A DNA stretch of 64,000 bases from positions 138,421 to 202,420 of the forward strand of contig CAMBFG010000002.1 of the NCBI GenBank assembly GCA_945865925.1, read 5' to 3'. Shown in pieces: positions 54,511 to 63,341 of this stretch. Position 1 is the stretch's first letter; each line of letters starts with the position of its first letter. This stretch comes from Dehalococcoides mccartyi (GTDB lineage: Bacteria; Chloroflexota; Dehalococcoidia; UBA2979). The notes beneath the pieces are model-generated. The model was not told the DNA's origin. It searched no databases and was given only the letters and a program-made list of their open reading frames with translations. The position numbers and the translations under genes were made by a program.

Positions 54511-55431
54511 GTGCTGATCCACCTTGACACCGATATCGGCGGCGACACGGACGACCTCTGTGCACTCGCGATGGTGCTCGGCTGGCCGGATACCGACGTG
54601 ATGGCGATCACGACCGTCGGAGATTCGGGTGGGCGACGTGCGGGGTATGCGCGGTACGCCCTCGATCTCGCGGAGCGCACGGACGTGCCGGTGTACGCGG
54701 GAGCCGATGTTGCCCTGGGCTGTTACCGCAGCGAACTCGGGCTCCCCGTGGAGGAGCGGTACTGGCCTGAGCCCGTGCCGCCCCTGCCGGGAGCCACGAC
54801 CCACGCCCTCGACGCGCTCGCCGCGAGCATCGAGGCTGGCGCGACGATCGTCACGATCGGGCCGCTCACCAACCTCGCGCTCCTCGAACGGCGGTCACCG
54901 GGGATCCTGCGAGAGGCGCGGCTGGTGGTGATGGGCGGATGGGTGTTCCCAATGCGGCCGGGCTATCCGGCCTGGGGCAACGACTACGACTTCAACGTCC
55001 AGGTGGACGCCGACTCCGCGCTACTGGTCTTCCAGACTTCGCAGCCCACCCTCGTACCTGTTGCCGTCACGGTGGAGACCGCACTGCGCGAGGCCGACCT
55101 GGCGGCGCTCCACGGGGGTAGTCCGCTGGCCCGGCTGCTCGCGCGGCAGGCGGAAGCATTCGCGGAGGATGAGCGGATGGCGGAGCGCTACGGGCGCACG
55201 CACGTGGGGCTACCGGACGACCTCGTGAACTTCCAGCACGATGCTCTCGCGTGCGCGGTTGCCCTCGGCTGGGACGGCGTCGCGATGCGCGAAGTGCCAC
55301 TTTCGTTCAGCCTCGACGATGGCGACGTACACGAGCGCATGGATCCGGCGGGTATCCCGACGCGTGTGGTGACCTCGGTGGACGGGGAGCGCTTTCAGCG
55401 CGACTGGCTGCGGATGATCGTCGGCCGCTAG
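54511..55431 (+). CDS. Nucleoside hydrolase (inosine-uridine preferring type)
   Basis: 306 residues, GTG start. HLDTDIGGDTDDLCALAMVL is the Ca-binding signature of nucleoside hydrolases; ATIVTIGPLTNLALL and WGNDYDFNVQVDADSA (FN-x-x-x-D) complete the active site. They split ribonucleosides into base and ribose, or act on related N-ribosides. Its stop overlaps the stop of ppx through a shared CTAG. The last ~10 codons are copied at 61995, within the scar described separately. Confidence 0.92.
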   Translation: MLIHLDTDIGGDTDDLCALAMVLGWPDTDVMAITTVGDSGGRRAGYARYALDLAERTDVPVYAGADVALGCYRSELGLPVEERYWPEPVPPLPGATTHALDALAASIEAGATIVTIGPLTNLALLERRSPGILREARLVVMGGWVFPMRPGYPAWGNDYDFNVQVDADSALLVFQTSQPTLVPVAVTVETALREADLAALHGGSPLARLLARQAEAFAEDERMAERYGRTHVGLPDDLVNFQHDALACAVALGWDGVAMREVPLSFSLDDGDVHERMDPAGIPTRVVTSVDGERFQRDWLRMIVGR

Positions 55432-55538
55432 GCCGAAGCGAGGCGGAGGCCGAGTGTGCGCTCGAAGCGAGCCGAGAGCGTCCCGAGTAATACGCCGTCG
55501 ACCCGCAAGGCACCGCGCACGGCGCCTTCGTCCCGCTG
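55401..55538. repeat. 138-bp segment duplicated at 61995-62132 (original copy)
   Basis: Covers the last ten codons of the nucleoside hydrolase gene and the last ~36 codons of the converging ppx gene. The copy 6.6 kb away aligns without gaps with about a dozen mismatches by eye, in the same orientation. Confidence 0.9.
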
Positions 55539-56924
55539 CCACGCGACCGCCCTGGCCCGAGGTGGGACGCGACGCTCCACCTCGTCCGCGACGGCGAGCA
55601 GCGTGCCGGCCGCCGCGATCGAGGGCCGATCTTCCGGGGTGACCAGCGGACGGTAGTCATTCGTGGGATCGTACTTTTCGCCGTCGGCCTGGCGAACGAT
55701 GGCACAGATCAAGGCAACCTCGCGGTGCGTCCAGCCGGGGAGGCCGTAGGCGAGCGTGAGGGCCTCCGTGTGCCGGTGGCGGTTGTAGTAGTCGACGCTT
55801 CGTCCGAGGTCGAGGAGCGTGGCGGCAGCGGACAGCGCCTCGACGATCTCGGCTGTGGCGGTGAAGCCAGCGGCGGCCGCGAGCGCCTCCACAGTCTGCG
55901 TACGCGCACGCGCGTCCTGCACGTAGGTGGGGGCAAAGCGCAGCACTGCGCGTTCGATGGAAGCCTCGCGAAGCGCGTGTACAGACGGCAGGTTGCCGCC
56001 CCGCGCATCGAGTGCGATGCCTTCGCGCAGGCCCTGGCCGGAGACGATGAGTGACTGCGCTCGGGTGGCCTCGACGACGGCCTGGAGGACAAGCGCACCC
56101 GCCACAATGCTGTCCGCCCGGTCTTCGTTGAGGCCGGCGAGGTTGTAGCGCTCCGCCTGAGTTCGCGTACGCACCAGGTCAGCGACGCCGCGGACGCCGT
56201 CCTGCGAGATCGCGTAGCCGTGCAGCCGCGACATCGGGTAGCGGTGACGCGAGCGGTCCATCTTGGCGATGTTGCGAATGGTACCCCCGGTACCCACGAG
56301 GGCTCCGCCGGGTGCCAGCGGCTCGATGCCCGCACTGGTGATCTGGGCAGCGAGGTGGTCTCGCAGCGCACGCAACTCGAGCTGACTCGATGGATCGCCC
56401 TGCAGGAACTGGGCGGTCAGGCGGACGGCACCAAGCGGGAGCGTCCAGGAGCGTCCGGCGGCTCGACCTGCGAACTGCATGAGTTCCATGCTGCCGCCGC
56501 CAATGTCGATCACCAGTCCGTGCTCGACCGGCAGGCTGTGGATCGCACCAAGGAATGCGAGGCGTGCTTCCTCGCCACCATCCACGATGCGCAGGGTGAT
56601 CCCGAGGTCGGCCTGCAGGCGGCTCGCGAGGTCTGCGCCGTTTGCGGCATCACGCACAGCGGAGGTCGCAACCGCCACGACGGGGTCGGCGTCCGCGCCG
56701 CGTGCCACGGCCTGGAAGTCGCGCAGGATCTCGACGACTTCGTCGATCGAGGTGGCGCTCAAGCGCCCGTCGCGCTGGACGCCTCGAATCAGCTTGGGGG
56801 TCGCGCTCGCCTCCTCGATGACTTCGAGGAGGCCCTGACCATCGGCGTTCACGATCGCGATGCGCACGGAGTTCGATCCGACATCGATGGCGGCGACCGG
56901 CTTCGTCAGTCCCTCTCGCGCCAT
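55428..56924 (-). CDS. ppx: Exopolyphosphatase/guanosine pentaphosphatase (Ppx/GppA)
   Basis: 498 residues from the ATG at 56924 with GGAGG seven bases upstream; two earlier starts exist but lack such a site. AAIDVGSNSVRIAIVNADG and VIDIGGGSMELM are the phosphate-binding motifs of the ASKHA fold, with GTGGTIRNIAKMD between domains. The C-terminal ~180 residues look like the HD-type helical domain (LLDLGRSVDYYNRHRHTEA). The enzyme releases phosphate from polyphosphate or pppGpp. It is convergent with the nucleoside hydrolase gene and lies 103 nt downstream of ppk on the same strand, giving a polyphosphate pair. Confidence 0.93.
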   Translation of the reverse strand: MAREGLTKPVAAIDVGSNSVRIAIVNADGQGLLEVIEEASATPKLIRGVQRDGRLSATSIDEVVEILRDFQAVARGADADPVVAVATSAVRDAANGADLASRLQADLGITLRIVDGGEEARLAFLGAIHSLPVEHGLVIDIGGGSMELMQFAGRAAGRSWTLPLGAVRLTAQFLQGDPSSQLELRALRDHLAAQITSAGIEPLAPGGALVGTGGTIRNIAKMDRSRHRYPMSRLHGYAISQDGVRGVADLVRTRTQAERYNLAGLNEDRADSIVAGALVLQAVVEATRAQSLIVSGQGLREGIALDARGGNLPSVHALREASIERAVLRFAPTYVQDARARTQTVEALAAAAGFTATAEIVEALSAAATLLDLGRSVDYYNRHRHTEALTLAYGLPGWTHREVALICAIVRQADGEKYDPTNDYRPLVTPEDRPSIAAAGTLLAVADEVERRVPPRARAVAWQRDEGAVRGALRVDGVLLGTLSARFERTLGLRLASA

Positions 56925-57027
56925 TCGCAGACCTCCGGAAGCGGGCAGCCCATCCACGATCAAGGTCATACGCGCTCCATCCGAGCGTACGCGCAAATGA
57001 GGGATGCGGCAGTTGGCTGGAGGATGG

Positions 57028-59130
57028 TCACGAAGCGACCGACGGGCCCGCCGATGCGGCGGCCATCAGCCGAGCGTGCACGCCGGGTCCGGAAGCCTCC
57101 GGGTCACGCAGCCAGACGCGGTCATGAAGATCCCACGCCTGGCGGCGGTCGGCCAACAACATCTCGAGCATGGTCAGGAGCGTGTGCTGCAACGCCGGCC
57201 GGTGGACGGGTGTCAGCACCTCGATGCGCTCATCGAGGTTGCGCTTCATGAGGTCAGCGCTGCCGATGAACACCTCCGGTGCGCCGTCGTTCTGGAAATA
57301 GAACACACGCGAGTGCTCCAGGAACCGCCCGATGACGCTGACGACGCGGACGTTCTCGCTCAGCCCCGGCACCCCGGGACGGAGACGGCAGATCCCGCGC
57401 ACGATCAGGTCCACCTTCACCCCCGCCTGCCCGGCGCGGTAGAGCAGACGGGTGAAGTCGAGATCTTCGAGGGCGTTCATCTTGAGCACGAGGCGCGCGG
57501 GCTTCCCGGACTGCGCAATGGCGATCTCGCGCTCGACGCGGCGTTCGAGCGATGTGCGGAGGTTCGCGGGCGCGACGAGCAGTTCGTGCGTATCGAGGCC
57601 GGCAGAGAGCCCGGTAAGGTAGTTGAACACCCGAAGCAGGTCACCGCAGATGATCGGGTCGGCGGTGAACAGGCCCAGGTCGGTGTAGACCCGCGCCGTC
57701 CTCGAGTTGTAGTTCCCGGTCCCGATGTGCGCGTACATCACGACGCCATCGATCTCCTCGCGGACGACCAGGGTGATCTTGCTGTGGATCTTGCGAGCCG
57801 GATCGCCGTAGCCGACGTGGATCCCCGCTTCTTCCAGCCGTCGCGCCCACTCAATATTGTTCTCTTCGTCGAGGCGAGCCGTGAGTTCGACGAGGACCGC
57901 CACCTGCTTGCCACGGGTGGAGGCCTCGATCAAGGCTTCGAGGATGGGCGAGTCGGGCGACGTACGGTACGTGGTGTGTTTGATCGCAAGGACCTGGGGG
58001 TCACGCGAGGCTTCCTCGATGAAACGGGCGACAGTCGCGTCGAAGGACTCGTATGGGTGGTGGACCAGCACGTCATCTGCCTGGATCGAGGTGAACAGGA
58101 GCGCTCGATCAGTTGCGTTGGCGAAGGACGCGGGAACGACTGGCGTGAACGGCTCGAATGTGGTCCCGGGCAACGGCTGAGCGACCAGCTGATGGAGATC
58201 AGCGAGCCCGAGCGGACCCCGGCACTCGACCACGTCCTGTCGAGTCAGGTCGAGCTCTTCGAGCAGAAGTTCCTCGCGGTCGGTGGTCTGGACGCCGGTG
58301 ACTTCGAGGTTCACGGCGTCCGCGAGTCGACGACGGCGCACCTCGCGCTCGATCAGTTCGAGGAGGTCATCAGCGGCTTCGCCAGGAGCGCCGAGTTCGA
58401 TGCTGCGTAGCACGCGGAGCATGCTTCGTTCGACGATGGTGACACCGGGGAAAAGGACCTCGAGGTGGGCGCCAATCAAGTCCTCCAGCAACACGAATCG
58501 CTGCTCACCTGCGTCCACGAAGCGAGGACGGTTCTGCGGCACCTTGACGCGTGCGAAGCGGTCAGTCCCCGACCGCGGATCCCGAACATGCAGCGCGAGC
58601 GAGAGGCTATTCGCTGAGATGAAAGGAAATGGATGCGCCGGGTCGACGACGAGCGGGGTCAACACGGGGTAGACCGCAGTCATGAAGTACTCGTTGAGGC
58701 GCGCCTTCGCGGCAGCGTCCAGCGACTCGAACGGAACGATCCGCACGCCTCGGCTCTCCAGGGCGGGGATCAGCGTCCTGTGCCAACAGTCTTCCATCTG
58801 GATGCGCGCGGCAGCACCGCGTGCGATGACGAGCGCAGCCTGCTCTGCCACCGTGAGGCCATCCACCGTCCGATGTGCCGGATTGGCGCGAAGCACTCGG
58901 CCAAGCCACGCCACCCGCTTCGAGTAGAACTCGTCGAGGTTACTGGAGGCGATGGCGAGGAAATGCACGCGCTCGAAGAGCGGGTTTCGCTCGTCATATG
59001 CCTCGGCAAGGACGCGATCATTGAAGTCGAGCCACGAGAGTTCGCGGTTCGCGTAGTTCGCGACATCGTCAAGATCAGGGATCGACGGCGCGGGGAGGTC
59101 GCGGGGGGCCTCTGGTCGCTGCTCGTTCAC
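57028..59130 (-). CDS. ppk1: Polyphosphate kinase 1
   Basis: About 700 residues; GTG starts at 59130, 59133 and 59139 and a TTG at 59205 are all possible, and no clear ribosome site separates them. NYANRELSWLDFNDRVL and LAIASSNLDEFYSKRVAWLG are the N1 signature; PLVVDPAHPFPFISANSLSL the N2 region; AIKHTTYRTSPDSPILEAL and KIHSKITLVVREE contain the catalytic histidine region (the His in KIHSK), with YAHIGTGNYNSRTARVYTD following. It builds polyphosphate from ATP. ppx follows 103 nt later on the same strand, so synthesis and breakdown genes are adjacent. Confidence 0.95.
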   Translation of the reverse strand: MNEQRPEAPRDLPAPSIPDLDDVANYANRELSWLDFNDRVLAEAYDERNPLFERVHFLAIASSNLDEFYSKRVAWLGRVLRANPAHRTVDGLTVAEQAALVIARGAAARIQMEDCWHRTLIPALESRGVRIVPFESLDAAAKARLNEYFMTAVYPVLTPLVVDPAHPFPFISANSLSLALHVRDPRSGTDRFARVKVPQNRPRFVDAGEQRFVLLEDLIGAHLEVLFPGVTIVERSMLRVLRSIELGAPGEAADDLLELIEREVRRRRLADAVNLEVTGVQTTDREELLLEELDLTRQDVVECRGPLGLADLHQLVAQPLPGTTFEPFTPVVPASFANATDRALLFTSIQADDVLVHHPYESFDATVARFIEEASRDPQVLAIKHTTYRTSPDSPILEALIEASTRGKQVAVLVELTARLDEENNIEWARRLEEAGIHVGYGDPARKIHSKITLVVREEIDGVVMYAHIGTGNYNSRTARVYTDLGLFTADPIICGDLLRVFNYLTGLSAGLDTHELLVAPANLRTSLERRVEREIAIAQSGKPARLVLKMNALEDLDFTRLLYRAGQAGVKVDLIVRGICRLRPGVPGLSENVRVVSVIGRFLEHSRVFYFQNDGAPEVFIGSADLMKRNLDERIEVLTPVHRPALQHTLLTMLEMLLADRRQAWDLHDRVWLRDPEASGPGVHARLMAAASAGPSVAS

Positions 59131-59205
59131 CACATCCACAGAATACTGCCGGATTGTTAACGTCCGCCCAGTCCCCACGCCATCGCTCTCACGATCCCCT
59201 CTCAA

Positions 59206-59702: not shown

Positions 59703-59726
59703 CATGCCTTCAGCATCACCCCCCGC

Positions 59727-59788
59727 CGTTAACACCACGTCAGCGGCGCATGACCATCTCGCTCACTCGTCGCTAACCCCCCGCTAAC
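59727..59788. promoter_or_regulatory. PHO-box-like array of six heptamers at 11-bp spacing
   Basis: Six heptamers start exactly every 11 bp: CGTTAAC (59727), CGTCAGC (59738), CATGACC (59749), CGCTCAC (59760), CGCTAAC (59771) and CGCTAAC (59782). Five resemble the consensus CGYTMAC; the third is weak. Direct repeats at 11 bp are the arrangement bound by PhoB/PhoP response regulators. The array ends ~106 nt before the acyltransferase gene and begins 25 nt upstream of the FmdB-like gene. Confidence 0.6.
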
Positions 59789-59893
59789 GCTTCGCCCGTA
59801 ACGTGGTGCCGTCGCCTCATTCGGCGGCAGCGGGAGGTCCCCATCGCCCTCGAGTCGACGACCGACATCACCCCTGCGGCCCGTCCGAAGACG

Positions 59894-60496
59894 ATGCTGG
59901 GGCTCGAACCTGTCGTGCATCCCACGGCGCGAATCATGGACTCGACACTCGGCGCGTGGACGCAGATCGGCGAGAAGACCTCGATCGTGGAGTCGAGTGT
60001 CGGTGACTACTCCTATCTGGTTGACCACTGCCATGTGCAGTACGCGACCATCGGTAAGTTCTGCTCGATCGCGAGTCACGCCCGGATCAATCCACCGAAC
60101 CACGCGATGTGGCGGGCGAGCCAGCATCACATGACTTACCGCCGCATCCAGTACGGGCTGGACGAGGTGGACGACGACGCCTTCTTCGACTGGCGTCGTG
60201 CGGACCACGTCACGATCGGGCATGACGTCTGGATCGGACACGGCGCCATCGTGCTGCCGGGCGTGACCGTGGGTCACGGAGCCGTCATTGGCGCTGGCGC
60301 TGTCGTCTCCAAGGACGTAGCACCCTACTCGATCGTCGGCGGGGTACCGGCGAAGCCGATCCGCGATCGGTTCCCTCGCGAGGTGCAAGAGGCGCTCCTC
60401 CGGATCGCGTGGTGGGATTGGTCGCGCGCGGAGATCGAGGCACGGTTCCAGGACTTCATGCTCCCCATCGAAGAGTTCTGCGCTCGGTACGACTAG
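59894..60496 (+). CDS. Hexapeptide-repeat acyltransferase, phosphonate-metabolism type
   Basis: 200 residues. Starts LGLEPVVHPTARIMDSTLGA, with left-handed beta-helix repeats (IGEKTSIVESSVGDYSYLVD, ATIGKFCSIASHARINP) and the CAT-like ending VTIGHDVWIGHGAIVLPG and VVSKDVAPYSIVGGVPAKPI. The insert NHAMWRASQHHMTYR and DDAFFDWRR match the group annotated with phosphonate operons (TIGR03308). It probably acetylates a small hydroxyl or amine. It lies downstream of the PHO-box-like array and overlaps the next gene by one base. No C-P lyase genes are in the window. The ATG lacks a clear ribosome site. Confidence 0.85.
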   Translation: MLGLEPVVHPTARIMDSTLGAWTQIGEKTSIVESSVGDYSYLVDHCHVQYATIGKFCSIASHARINPPNHAMWRASQHHMTYRRIQYGLDEVDDDAFFDWRRADHVTIGHDVWIGHGAIVLPGVTVGHGAVIGAGAVVSKDVAPYSIVGGVPAKPIRDRFPREVQEALLRIAWWDWSRAEIEARFQDFMLPIEEFCARYD

Positions 60497-61332
60497 TGCG
60501 CACCCTCCGAGTGGTGTCGCTGAACACATGGAAGGGCGACGGCCCGTATCGTGCTCGACTGGCGGCAATGGCCGAGCAGTTGAGGGCGCTTGAGCCAGAC
60601 GTCGTCTGCCTTCAGGAGGCGTTCATCGCGATCGACGGGTCACTCTCGACACCGAGGGCACTGGCGGCAGCGCTCACGATGAACCACGCGACGTACGCCA
60701 TGCGTGAGAAAGATCGCGAGGTCGAGGGCGTGACCGTCCCGTCCCGCTCGGGCCTCTCAACGCTCTCGCGCTGGCCGATCGTCGAGGTCGTCTCGCGGCC
60801 GATCCCGAGCGACCCACGTGACGGCGACCGTGGGGCGCTCCTTGTCGCGGTGGAGACGCCGCTGGGCATCGCGCGGATCGTGAACACACACCTCACCTAC
60901 ATCCGCGATGTCGACACGGAGGCGTTGAAACTGGAACAGGTACAGGCGGTGCTTGCCGAGCCCTGGCTCCGCGACGCCGCATCGATCCGGCTCCTCTGTG
61001 GTGACTTCAACTCGGTACCGGACTCGCCGACCGTCGCCTACATCCGAGAGCACAGCGGCTGGCACGTGCAGGAGGCCGCCCCGCACCCGACCGCCGGTGG
61101 CGAGCGCCCGGTCACCTTCAGCCCGCGCAACGCGAACGTCCGCGAGGGCGCACGGTCCGCGGTGCTGGACTACGTCTTCTCGCTCGCGCCGGCGGCCCGC
61201 CGCCAGCCGAGGGTCTCCGCCTCGGTGGTACTCGACCAACCTACCGGCTCGGTCTTTCCCAGCGATCACTTCGGTGTGTTTGCCGAGGTGGGCGCACCTC
61301 CGGGGGAAGAAGCATTCGCCTCCACTCGATAG
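60496..61332 (+). CDS. Endonuclease/exonuclease/phosphatase (EEP) family protein
   Basis: 278 residues from the GTG at 60496, which shares one base with the previous stop (TAGTG). VVSLNTWKGDGPYRARLA, VVCLQEAF, VNTHLTYIRDVDTE, LLCGDFNSVPDSP and PSDHFGVFAEV are the EEP metal and catalytic motifs (Asn, Glu, His, Asp-x-Asn, Asp-His). Members cleave phosphodiesters or sugar and inositol phosphates. Co-transcription with the acyltransferase behind a PHO-like array suggests a phosphate-scavenging hydrolase; this is inference. No signal peptide. Confidence 0.88.
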   Translation: MRTLRVVSLNTWKGDGPYRARLAAMAEQLRALEPDVVCLQEAFIAIDGSLSTPRALAAALTMNHATYAMREKDREVEGVTVPSRSGLSTLSRWPIVEVVSRPIPSDPRDGDRGALLVAVETPLGIARIVNTHLTYIRDVDTEALKLEQVQAVLAEPWLRDAASIRLLCGDFNSVPDSPTVAYIREHSGWHVQEAAPHPTAGGERPVTFSPRNANVREGARSAVLDYVFSLAPAARRQPRVSASVVLDQPTGSVFPSDHFGVFAEVGAPPGEEAFASTR

Positions 61333-62222: not shown

Positions 62223-63341
62223 TTACCCGCGATCCCCGTTCGCGAGGCTCGGGAGCAGGCGGGCTGCACCCGTAGGAGATGAGATCACCACCGACGCCGT
62301 GGTGGCGAACCGAAGCGCGTCAAGCGTGTATCCCCGCAGTCGGTCGATCAGTCCTGCGTGTTCGTACTCGCTGGGGATCACAACCCCGTCGAGCCCGAGG
62401 CGGTTCGACCACTCACCAAGGTCGCCGAAACCCACTCCGGTTGGCAGGATGGCGAACACGTTCCCATCCGCGGGGATTTGTTCCATGCGATCCGCCAGAT
62501 AGGGGCGACCAATGGCATTGCGGACGTAAGCAGCCTCAAGTGGGTGCCGGTCGTCCGACCGGGGATAGGGATCGACTAGGTATGAGGCCGAGGCGAGGTC
62601 GTAGAGGTAGAGGTCGCAGTTTGGGATGGGCCCCGCGCTCGTGATCGCGCCGAGCACTCGTGTCACGGCTGGGCGCTTGCCATCGTCGATCAGGAGACCC
62701 AGGCGGTGCGGTGCCATACCGGAGACGGCGTCTTGCAGCGATCCATCCCCAGAGGTTTGGCCAGAGATAGAACCGGGGCGGTTGGACGCGCGGACGACGT
62801 CAAGATGGCTCGTGATCGCGAGCACCACGCGAGGATCCTCTGACACGAAACCCACGAAGCGCTTGTCTGGGTGGGTAGCGCCGTACTGGCCCCACAGCGA
62901 GTCGTCCGAGACTTCCCATGCCATAAAGGCGACAGGCTCTGGAGTCCGGGCTACGAGATACCACTGGTTTTCGAGATTGCGCCGCCCCGGGGGCAGACTG
63001 AACCAGGTGATGGCACCGGACTGAGGGCTTTCCGGTTGGCCCTCCCCAAAGGCGTACACGGAAACACCTCGGCGCCCGATCTGGTTGTAGCGGTCGGTCT
63101 CTAGTTGGAACTTCTGTTGGTTCTGGAAGCCTACGTACACGGAGGAAGGGGCAGGGCGAGTCTTCCACCCGGCCTCGATCTCTCGGCTGATCCGCAGCAT
63201 CTCCCTCGCGTCGCAGAGGAAGGAGAAGCCCTGGATGGGGTCGCCGCCATTGCGCAATTGGCCCTGAAGTCGGTCCAAGAACGTTGCGATCCCGCTCGAG
63301 CCGATGGCTGCGGCCTCCGCTTCCGTCAACTTCCAGTCCAT
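62223..63341 (-). CDS. DICT sensory-domain protein
   Basis: 372 residues, ATG with AAGGAG six bases upstream. Residues ~35-170 match the DICT domain (VYVGFQNQQKFQLETDRYNQ, VSVYAFGEGQ, NQWYLVARTPEPVAFMAWEV, FVGFVSEDPRVV), which is found with GGDEF, histidine kinase and other signalling domains. The last ~170 residues resemble a universal-stress-protein-like alpha/beta module, ending VVIPSEYEHAGLIDRLRGYT. No membrane helix. It is transcribed divergently from heliorhodopsin, so it may relay a light signal; this is inference. Confidence 0.8.
   Translation of the reverse strand: MDWKLTEAEAAAIGSSGIATFLDRLQGQLRNGGDPIQGFSFLCDAREMLRISREIEAGWKTRPAPSSVYVGFQNQQKFQLETDRYNQIGRRGVSVYAFGEGQPESPQSGAITWFSLPPGRRNLENQWYLVARTPEPVAFMAWEVSDDSLWGQYGATHPDKRFVGFVSEDPRVVLAITSHLDVVRASNRPGSISGQTSGDGSLQDAVSGMAPHRLGLLIDDGKRPAVTRVLGAITSAGPIPNCDLYLYDLASASYLVDPYPRSDDRHPLEAAYVRNAIGRPYLADRMEQIPADGNVFAILPTGVGFGDLGEWSNRLGLDGVVIPSEYEHAGLIDRLRGYTLDALRFATTASVVISSPTGAARLLPSLANGDRG

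Follow-up and report, generated by a model that had tools for sequence, protein, structure and literature searches.

A PHO-box-like array of six 11-bp-phased units between an fmdB-like gene and an acyltransferase operon in a Dehalococcoidia genome

The DNA analysed here is a 64-kb stretch (the window) of a 2.31-Mb, 92%-complete genome of a Dehalococcoidia-like member of the Chloroflexota (G000). The array under study has an fmdB-like gene on the minus strand to one side and, on the plus strand to the other, a hexapeptide acyltransferase gene paired with an endonuclease/exonuclease/phosphatase (EEP) family gene (Table 1). An earlier sequence-only reading had reported six heptamers in exact 11-bp phase, and all six were found, starting at 59727 + 11n and reading in order CGTTAAC, CGTCAGC, CATGACC, CGCTCAC, CGCTAAC and CGCTAAC. 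It had also placed ppk and ppx next to the array region, as we observed, and had assigned the acyltransferase to a phosphonate-linked group; the protein is a true TIGR03308 member, scoring above the cut-off of the model. A homologue of the acyltransferase that is 87% identical occurs in Dehalococcoidia bacterium SURF_43. At 59843-59896, alignment by eye sets ATC-GCC of this genome against the ATG-GCC start of the same-genus relatives G002 and G004; the true start may lie upstream near 59843 (ATC) or at the later ATG at 59894, or an assembly error may have altered the base.

Table 1. Genes, repeat units and predicted promoter elements around the array (window positions).
Feature	Position	Strand	Remarks
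ppx/gppA-type exopolyphosphatase	55428..56996	-	family matches
ppk, polyphosphate kinase	57028..59133	-	family matches
Predicted -10 TATTCT of ppk	59140..59145	-	6 nt before GTG start at 59133 (probably leaderless)
Single PHO-box unit GTTAAC before ppk	59156..59161	-	10 bp before -10
fmdB-like zinc-ribbon protein, 89 aa	59436..59705	-	TIGR02605 and PF09723 below cut-offs
Predicted -10 GATGCT of fmdB	59712..59717	-	10 bp past GTTAAC, 6 nt before ATG at 59705
PHO-box-like array, six 11-bp-phased units	59727..59788	+	heptamers at 59727, 59738, 59749, 59760, 59771, 59782
Divergent unit pair GCTGAC-N5-GTTAAC facing fmdB	59728..59744	-	sequence pattern match
Promoter-proximal unit pair CGCTAAC-N4-CGCTAAC, acyltransferase operon	59771..59788	+	conserved in G002 and G004
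Predicted -10 TAACGT	59799..59804	+	exactly 10 bp past last unit
Hexapeptide acyltransferase	59894..60496	+	TIGR03308, 288.6 bits, cut-off 201.65
EEP family protein	60496..61332	+	PF03372
MBL phosphodiesterase remnant, C-terminal 56 residues	61349..61516	-	71% identical to G002, E 5e-20

The array contains at least two direct repeats of about seven conserved nucleotides with an 11-bp period, the form expected of a PHO box. Units 1, 4, 5 and 6 are good and units 2 and 3 weak, matching CGCTAAC at 4/7 and 3/7 positions, respectively. In a scan of the window for self-agreement over six units and seven columns, the array scored 33/42 and was the only position with at least 31 at period 11. Peaks at periods 7, 8, 10, 13, 14 and 16, which are not multiples of 3, reached 29-31, and the codon-phased periods 9, 12 and 15 reached 33-35. 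The array was absent from the output of Tandem Repeats Finder.

The same unit was found at phosphate-uptake genes, which supports the earlier proposal of a PHO-box-like element. The pst locus, on another contig of this genome (C6), encodes PstS, C, A, B, PhoU, a PhoR-like kinase with HisKA/HATPase domains and a PhoB-like regulator with a Trans_reg_C domain, whose gene lies at L113:10065-10784 on the minus strand; a second PhoU gene is divergent from pstS, giving two PhoU proteins and a PhoR-PhoB pair linked to pst-phoU. GATCAC-N5-GTTAAC precedes pstS in all four same-genus genomes for which the pstS promoter region was available, and GTTAAC-N5-GTTGC precedes phoB in 3/3 same-genus genomes. In the present genome the two promoters carry two good units each and have the motif in common. 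GTTAAC is a rare word in this genome, with 28 copies where its reverse has 66. Each of three pst-phoB stretches (9.5-15 kb), from G000, G001 and G004, contains just two copies, one before pstS and one before phoB. Among the 20 phoB loci listed, out of 26, an obvious GTTAAC or CTTAAC box was seen at 8. The phoB box of this genome (L113:10829-10918) has phoB on one side and a divergent DSP/PTP-like phosphatase gene on the other, and therefore may also act in both directions. The sequence-only reading had suggested a search near pstS, phoU and pit; the unit was found at pstS and phoB, and pit (PF01384) had no match in this 92%-complete genome.

We then scored the window, on both strands, with a weight matrix built from 14 units, all taken from pstS and phoB promoters in four Dehalococcoidia genomes of the same genus and none from the array. 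The array ranked first at 32.9 bits, and the top score among 40 simulated Markov windows was 17.7. None of 300 column-permuted matrices attained the real score; 44 of the 300 still placed the array first, so that its prominence is owed in part to sheer regularity. A combined pattern, GNTNAC-N5-GNTNAC-N10-NANNNT, gave 14 matches in five same-genus genomes versus 5 for the reversed pattern. Eight of these were at pstS (G000, G001, G003, G004), the acyltransferase promoter (G000, G002, G004) and fmdB (G000, on the opposite strand of the array), and the other six all lay within ORFs on inspection. Two simpler probes of the regulon were discarded. GYTAAC-N5-GYTAAC, with at most one mismatch, had 4 matches genome-wide (3 in the array and a fourth on contig C15), with 5 for the reversed control. 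As for GTTAAC alone, many of the 28 sites fell within ORFs, and a tRNA-like sequence contained one; the word is useful only with a phased partner or a -10.

The array is thus very probably a PHO box, a head-to-tail operator of the pst-linked PhoB/RegX3-type response regulator, whose closest solved relative by sequence is RegX3. The identity of the binding protein, a response to phosphate starvation and the direction in which control runs are inferred from the sequence. The regulators of the OmpR/PhoB family also include paralogues that bind tandem sites of about 11 bp, and an MtrA- or KdpE-like paralogue could occupy the array, its sharing with pstS then reflecting overlapping motifs. The genome has eight OmpR-type DNA-binding (Trans_reg_C) domains, and MtrA is the next-closest solved relative of the pst-linked regulator after RegX3. 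This explanation is nevertheless unlikely: the unit is common to the pstS promoters of four genomes and the pst-linked phoB promoters of three, and it recurs at ppk and at the phn operons, all of them phosphorus genes.

The distance between the units and the predicted -10 also followed a rule. In the relatives, the -10 of the acyltransferase promoter reads TAAGGT (G002) or TAGCGT (G004), and in these two genomes, as in the present one, it lies exactly 10 bp past the last unit. GYTAAC-N10-TANNNT had two matches in the 2.31-Mb genome, one at the acyltransferase promoter and the other at ppk, which bears a one-unit version of the box, GTTAAC-N10-TATTCT-N6-GTG. Upstream sites of like form were found at ppk in 5 of the 8 genomes examined (p 0.003-0.02 against shuffles) and not in the ppk upstream regions of G009, G023 and G037. 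The phoB promoters of six genomes (G000, G001, G004 and three AT-rich relatives) read units, N10, TAN3T, 6 nt and ATG, with the 10-bp gap counted after a degenerate last unit; in the AT-rich relatives, two of which are nearly identical, the units are CTTAAG-CTTAAC-CTTAAA. The 6-nt gap between the -10 and the start codon suggests leaderless mRNAs, and the published signature of leaderless genes in bacteria is a TANNNT some 12 bp ahead of the start (PMC3160421).

In G003, GYTAAC-N10-TANNNT also had two matches, one of them before a gene that reads like a putative low-molecular-weight arsenate reductase. There (L235, G003:C175, position 1501), TCTCAC-N5-GTTAAC-N10-TACTCT is followed after 7 nt by the ATG of the ArsC-like gene and then by an aquaporin-like gene; the ArsC-like gene may belong to the Pho regulon as an arsenate member.

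The fixed 10-bp gap to TAN3T and the single-unit ppk sites would also fit a different explanation, in which GTTAAC/GCTAAC and TAN3T form the core promoter of a dedicated sigma factor instead of an activator site. Ten bp is too short for ordinary -35/-10 spacing, and at phoB and phnC the good units are separated from the -10 by a degenerate unit position, with the 11-bp steps maintained throughout. A dedicated sigma factor is therefore very unlikely, and we retain the PHO-box interpretation.

The opposite strand of the array showed the same geometry. Read into fmdB, it gives GCTGAC-N5-GTTAAC-N10-GATGCT-N6-ATG, and the fmdB mRNA is probably leaderless. In G002 and G004, 10 bp past the same GTTAAC, the sequence is CAACAT or CAGCAT, again xAxxxT. 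GTTAAC and the first GCTAAC are 44 bp apart in the present genome and 33 bp apart in both G002 and G004, an 11-bp step that keeps the phase. The outer units are kept in 3/3 same-genus genomes with the acyltransferase gene (the present genome included), and the middle units are not kept between this genome and G002 or G004. The expectation that the repeats would be conserved in relatives thus held for the outer units, with an in-phase indel of 11 bp, and failed for the middle ones. This pattern matches, at the level of sequence, what would be expected if two PHO boxes stood back to back on the same face of the helix. A chance origin of the spacing within a GC-rich promoter, as the two poor units and the equally self-consistent codon-phased arrays might suggest, is scarcely credible, being contradicted by the first rank under an independent matrix and by conservation with the in-phase indel. 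Most likely, the PHO box is a bidirectional PhoB operator, with its last two units directed toward acyltransferase-EEP and its first unit toward fmdB.

The acyltransferase belongs to a group that usually accompanies C-P lyase genes. PhnG, H, I, J or M lay within 3 kb of a TIGR03308 homologue at 52 of 80 named loci, and under a looser test PhnG/H/I/J/M or PhnD/E were near the homologue at 74 of the 80; this adjacency is a genomic habit of the group and no requirement of the model. PhnJ was found in 3 of the 21 genomes searched (G002, G012 and G037), each time on the contig that also carries the acyltransferase. The phn genes of G002 and G012 are followed by an MBL phosphodiesterase gene, which ends the phn operon in these relatives, and then by EEP and acyltransferase genes facing the MBL gene. 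PhnJ was not found in the present genome, where the acyltransferase has no C-P lyase neighbours and only the last 56 codons of the MBL gene face EEP. Because only this remnant is present and PhnJ is absent, the C-P lyase operon appears to have been lost on the EEP side. By this comparison of gene order, acyltransferase-EEP is a putative orphaned fragment of a phosphonate unit, and the MBL remnant marks the presumed edge of the lost operon. A DICT-domain sensory protein is encoded downstream of the remnant (62226-63341, minus strand).

In G004 the acyltransferase gene (G004:C2:13593-14093) is broken by a TGA with the outer units of the array intact, and the surrounding 7-kb stretch showed no EEP; this is either decay in progress or an assembly error. 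The readable phn operon promoters look PHO-controlled, judging from their units. That of G037 reads CTTAAC, TCTTAC, GTTCAC, N10, TACTGT (3 units; p 0.01), and that of phnC in G002 reads GTTAAC, GATTTC, ACTTAC, GTAAAC, GCAGAG, N10, TAGCCT (5 units, recognised by eye; matrix p = 0.28). Before the acyltransferase gene itself, the matrix gave no significant site in G035 (p 0.58) or G037, a weak one in G012 (p 0.025) and borderline ones in G018 and G032. By eye, 11-bp-phased G..NAC-like units can be read before the acyltransferase genes of G035 and G012; with these matrix values we do not claim them as arrays.

Taken together, these observations fit the following mechanism. When phosphate is limiting, PhoB would be phosphorylated by PhoR and, as dimers, would occupy the 11-bp units along one helix face. 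Bound PhoB would recruit RNA polymerase to the -10 lying exactly 10 bp past the last unit. Units 5 and 6 would drive the acyltransferase-EEP operon, and unit 1, whose GTTAAC is a palindrome, would drive fmdB together with unit 2. More tentatively, a six-unit shared PHO operator, enough for three PhoB dimers, might have outlived the C-P lyase operon in this Dehalococcoidia lineage, leaving acyltransferase-EEP and FmdB as a stand-alone phosphate-starvation module whose function is independent of phosphonate cleavage; we regard this as possible and rather doubtful.

The array is a known kind of element in a Chloroflexota lineage that has received little study, and its added interest lies in the bidirectional layout and the phosphonate-operon relic. 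No description of a PHO box in Chloroflexota was found in the open-access literature (titles and abstract openings). For this group of Chloroflexota, represented here solely by assembled genomes, the analysis offers a concrete definition: CGYTAAC in 11-bp steps, 10 bp and TAN3T, in many cases with a presumed leaderless start 6 nt further on. The group's phosphate regulons therefore become predictable from sequence. It would also tie both the phn_thr acyltransferase and the EEP protein paired with it to phosphate starvation, and the locus would record the loss of a C-P lyase operon with its phosphate-controlled flank kept.

Known PHO boxes resemble the array to different degrees. The E. coli PhoB box consists of two 11-nt direct repeats (PMC4415409, PMC1906773) with a 10-bp gap from the box to the -10 (PMC1906773). 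It shares with the array seven conserved and four less conserved bases per unit and the 10 bp to a -10 of the form TAN3T/A, and differs in its consensus, CTGTCAT as against CGYTAAC. The Streptomyces PhoP box, GTTCACC (PMC4415409), is likewise built of 11-nt direct repeat units whose number and quality vary per operator. Its core is TTCACC and that of the array TTAAC or CTAAC, yet GATCAC occurs at pstS and GTTCAC at phnC of G037. The cyanobacterial SphR Pho box is a tandem of CTTAACCT, 8 + 3 bp (PMC1906773), and has the 11-bp period, the TTAAC core and at least two direct repeats before pst and phosphatase operons; the SphR-type GTTAATCTtcaGTTAACCT of ATCC29413 is nearly identical to the array unit. 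Unlike the SphR box, the array has GC-rich CGYTAAC units, a Chloroflexota host, a bidirectional placement and probable leaderless targets.
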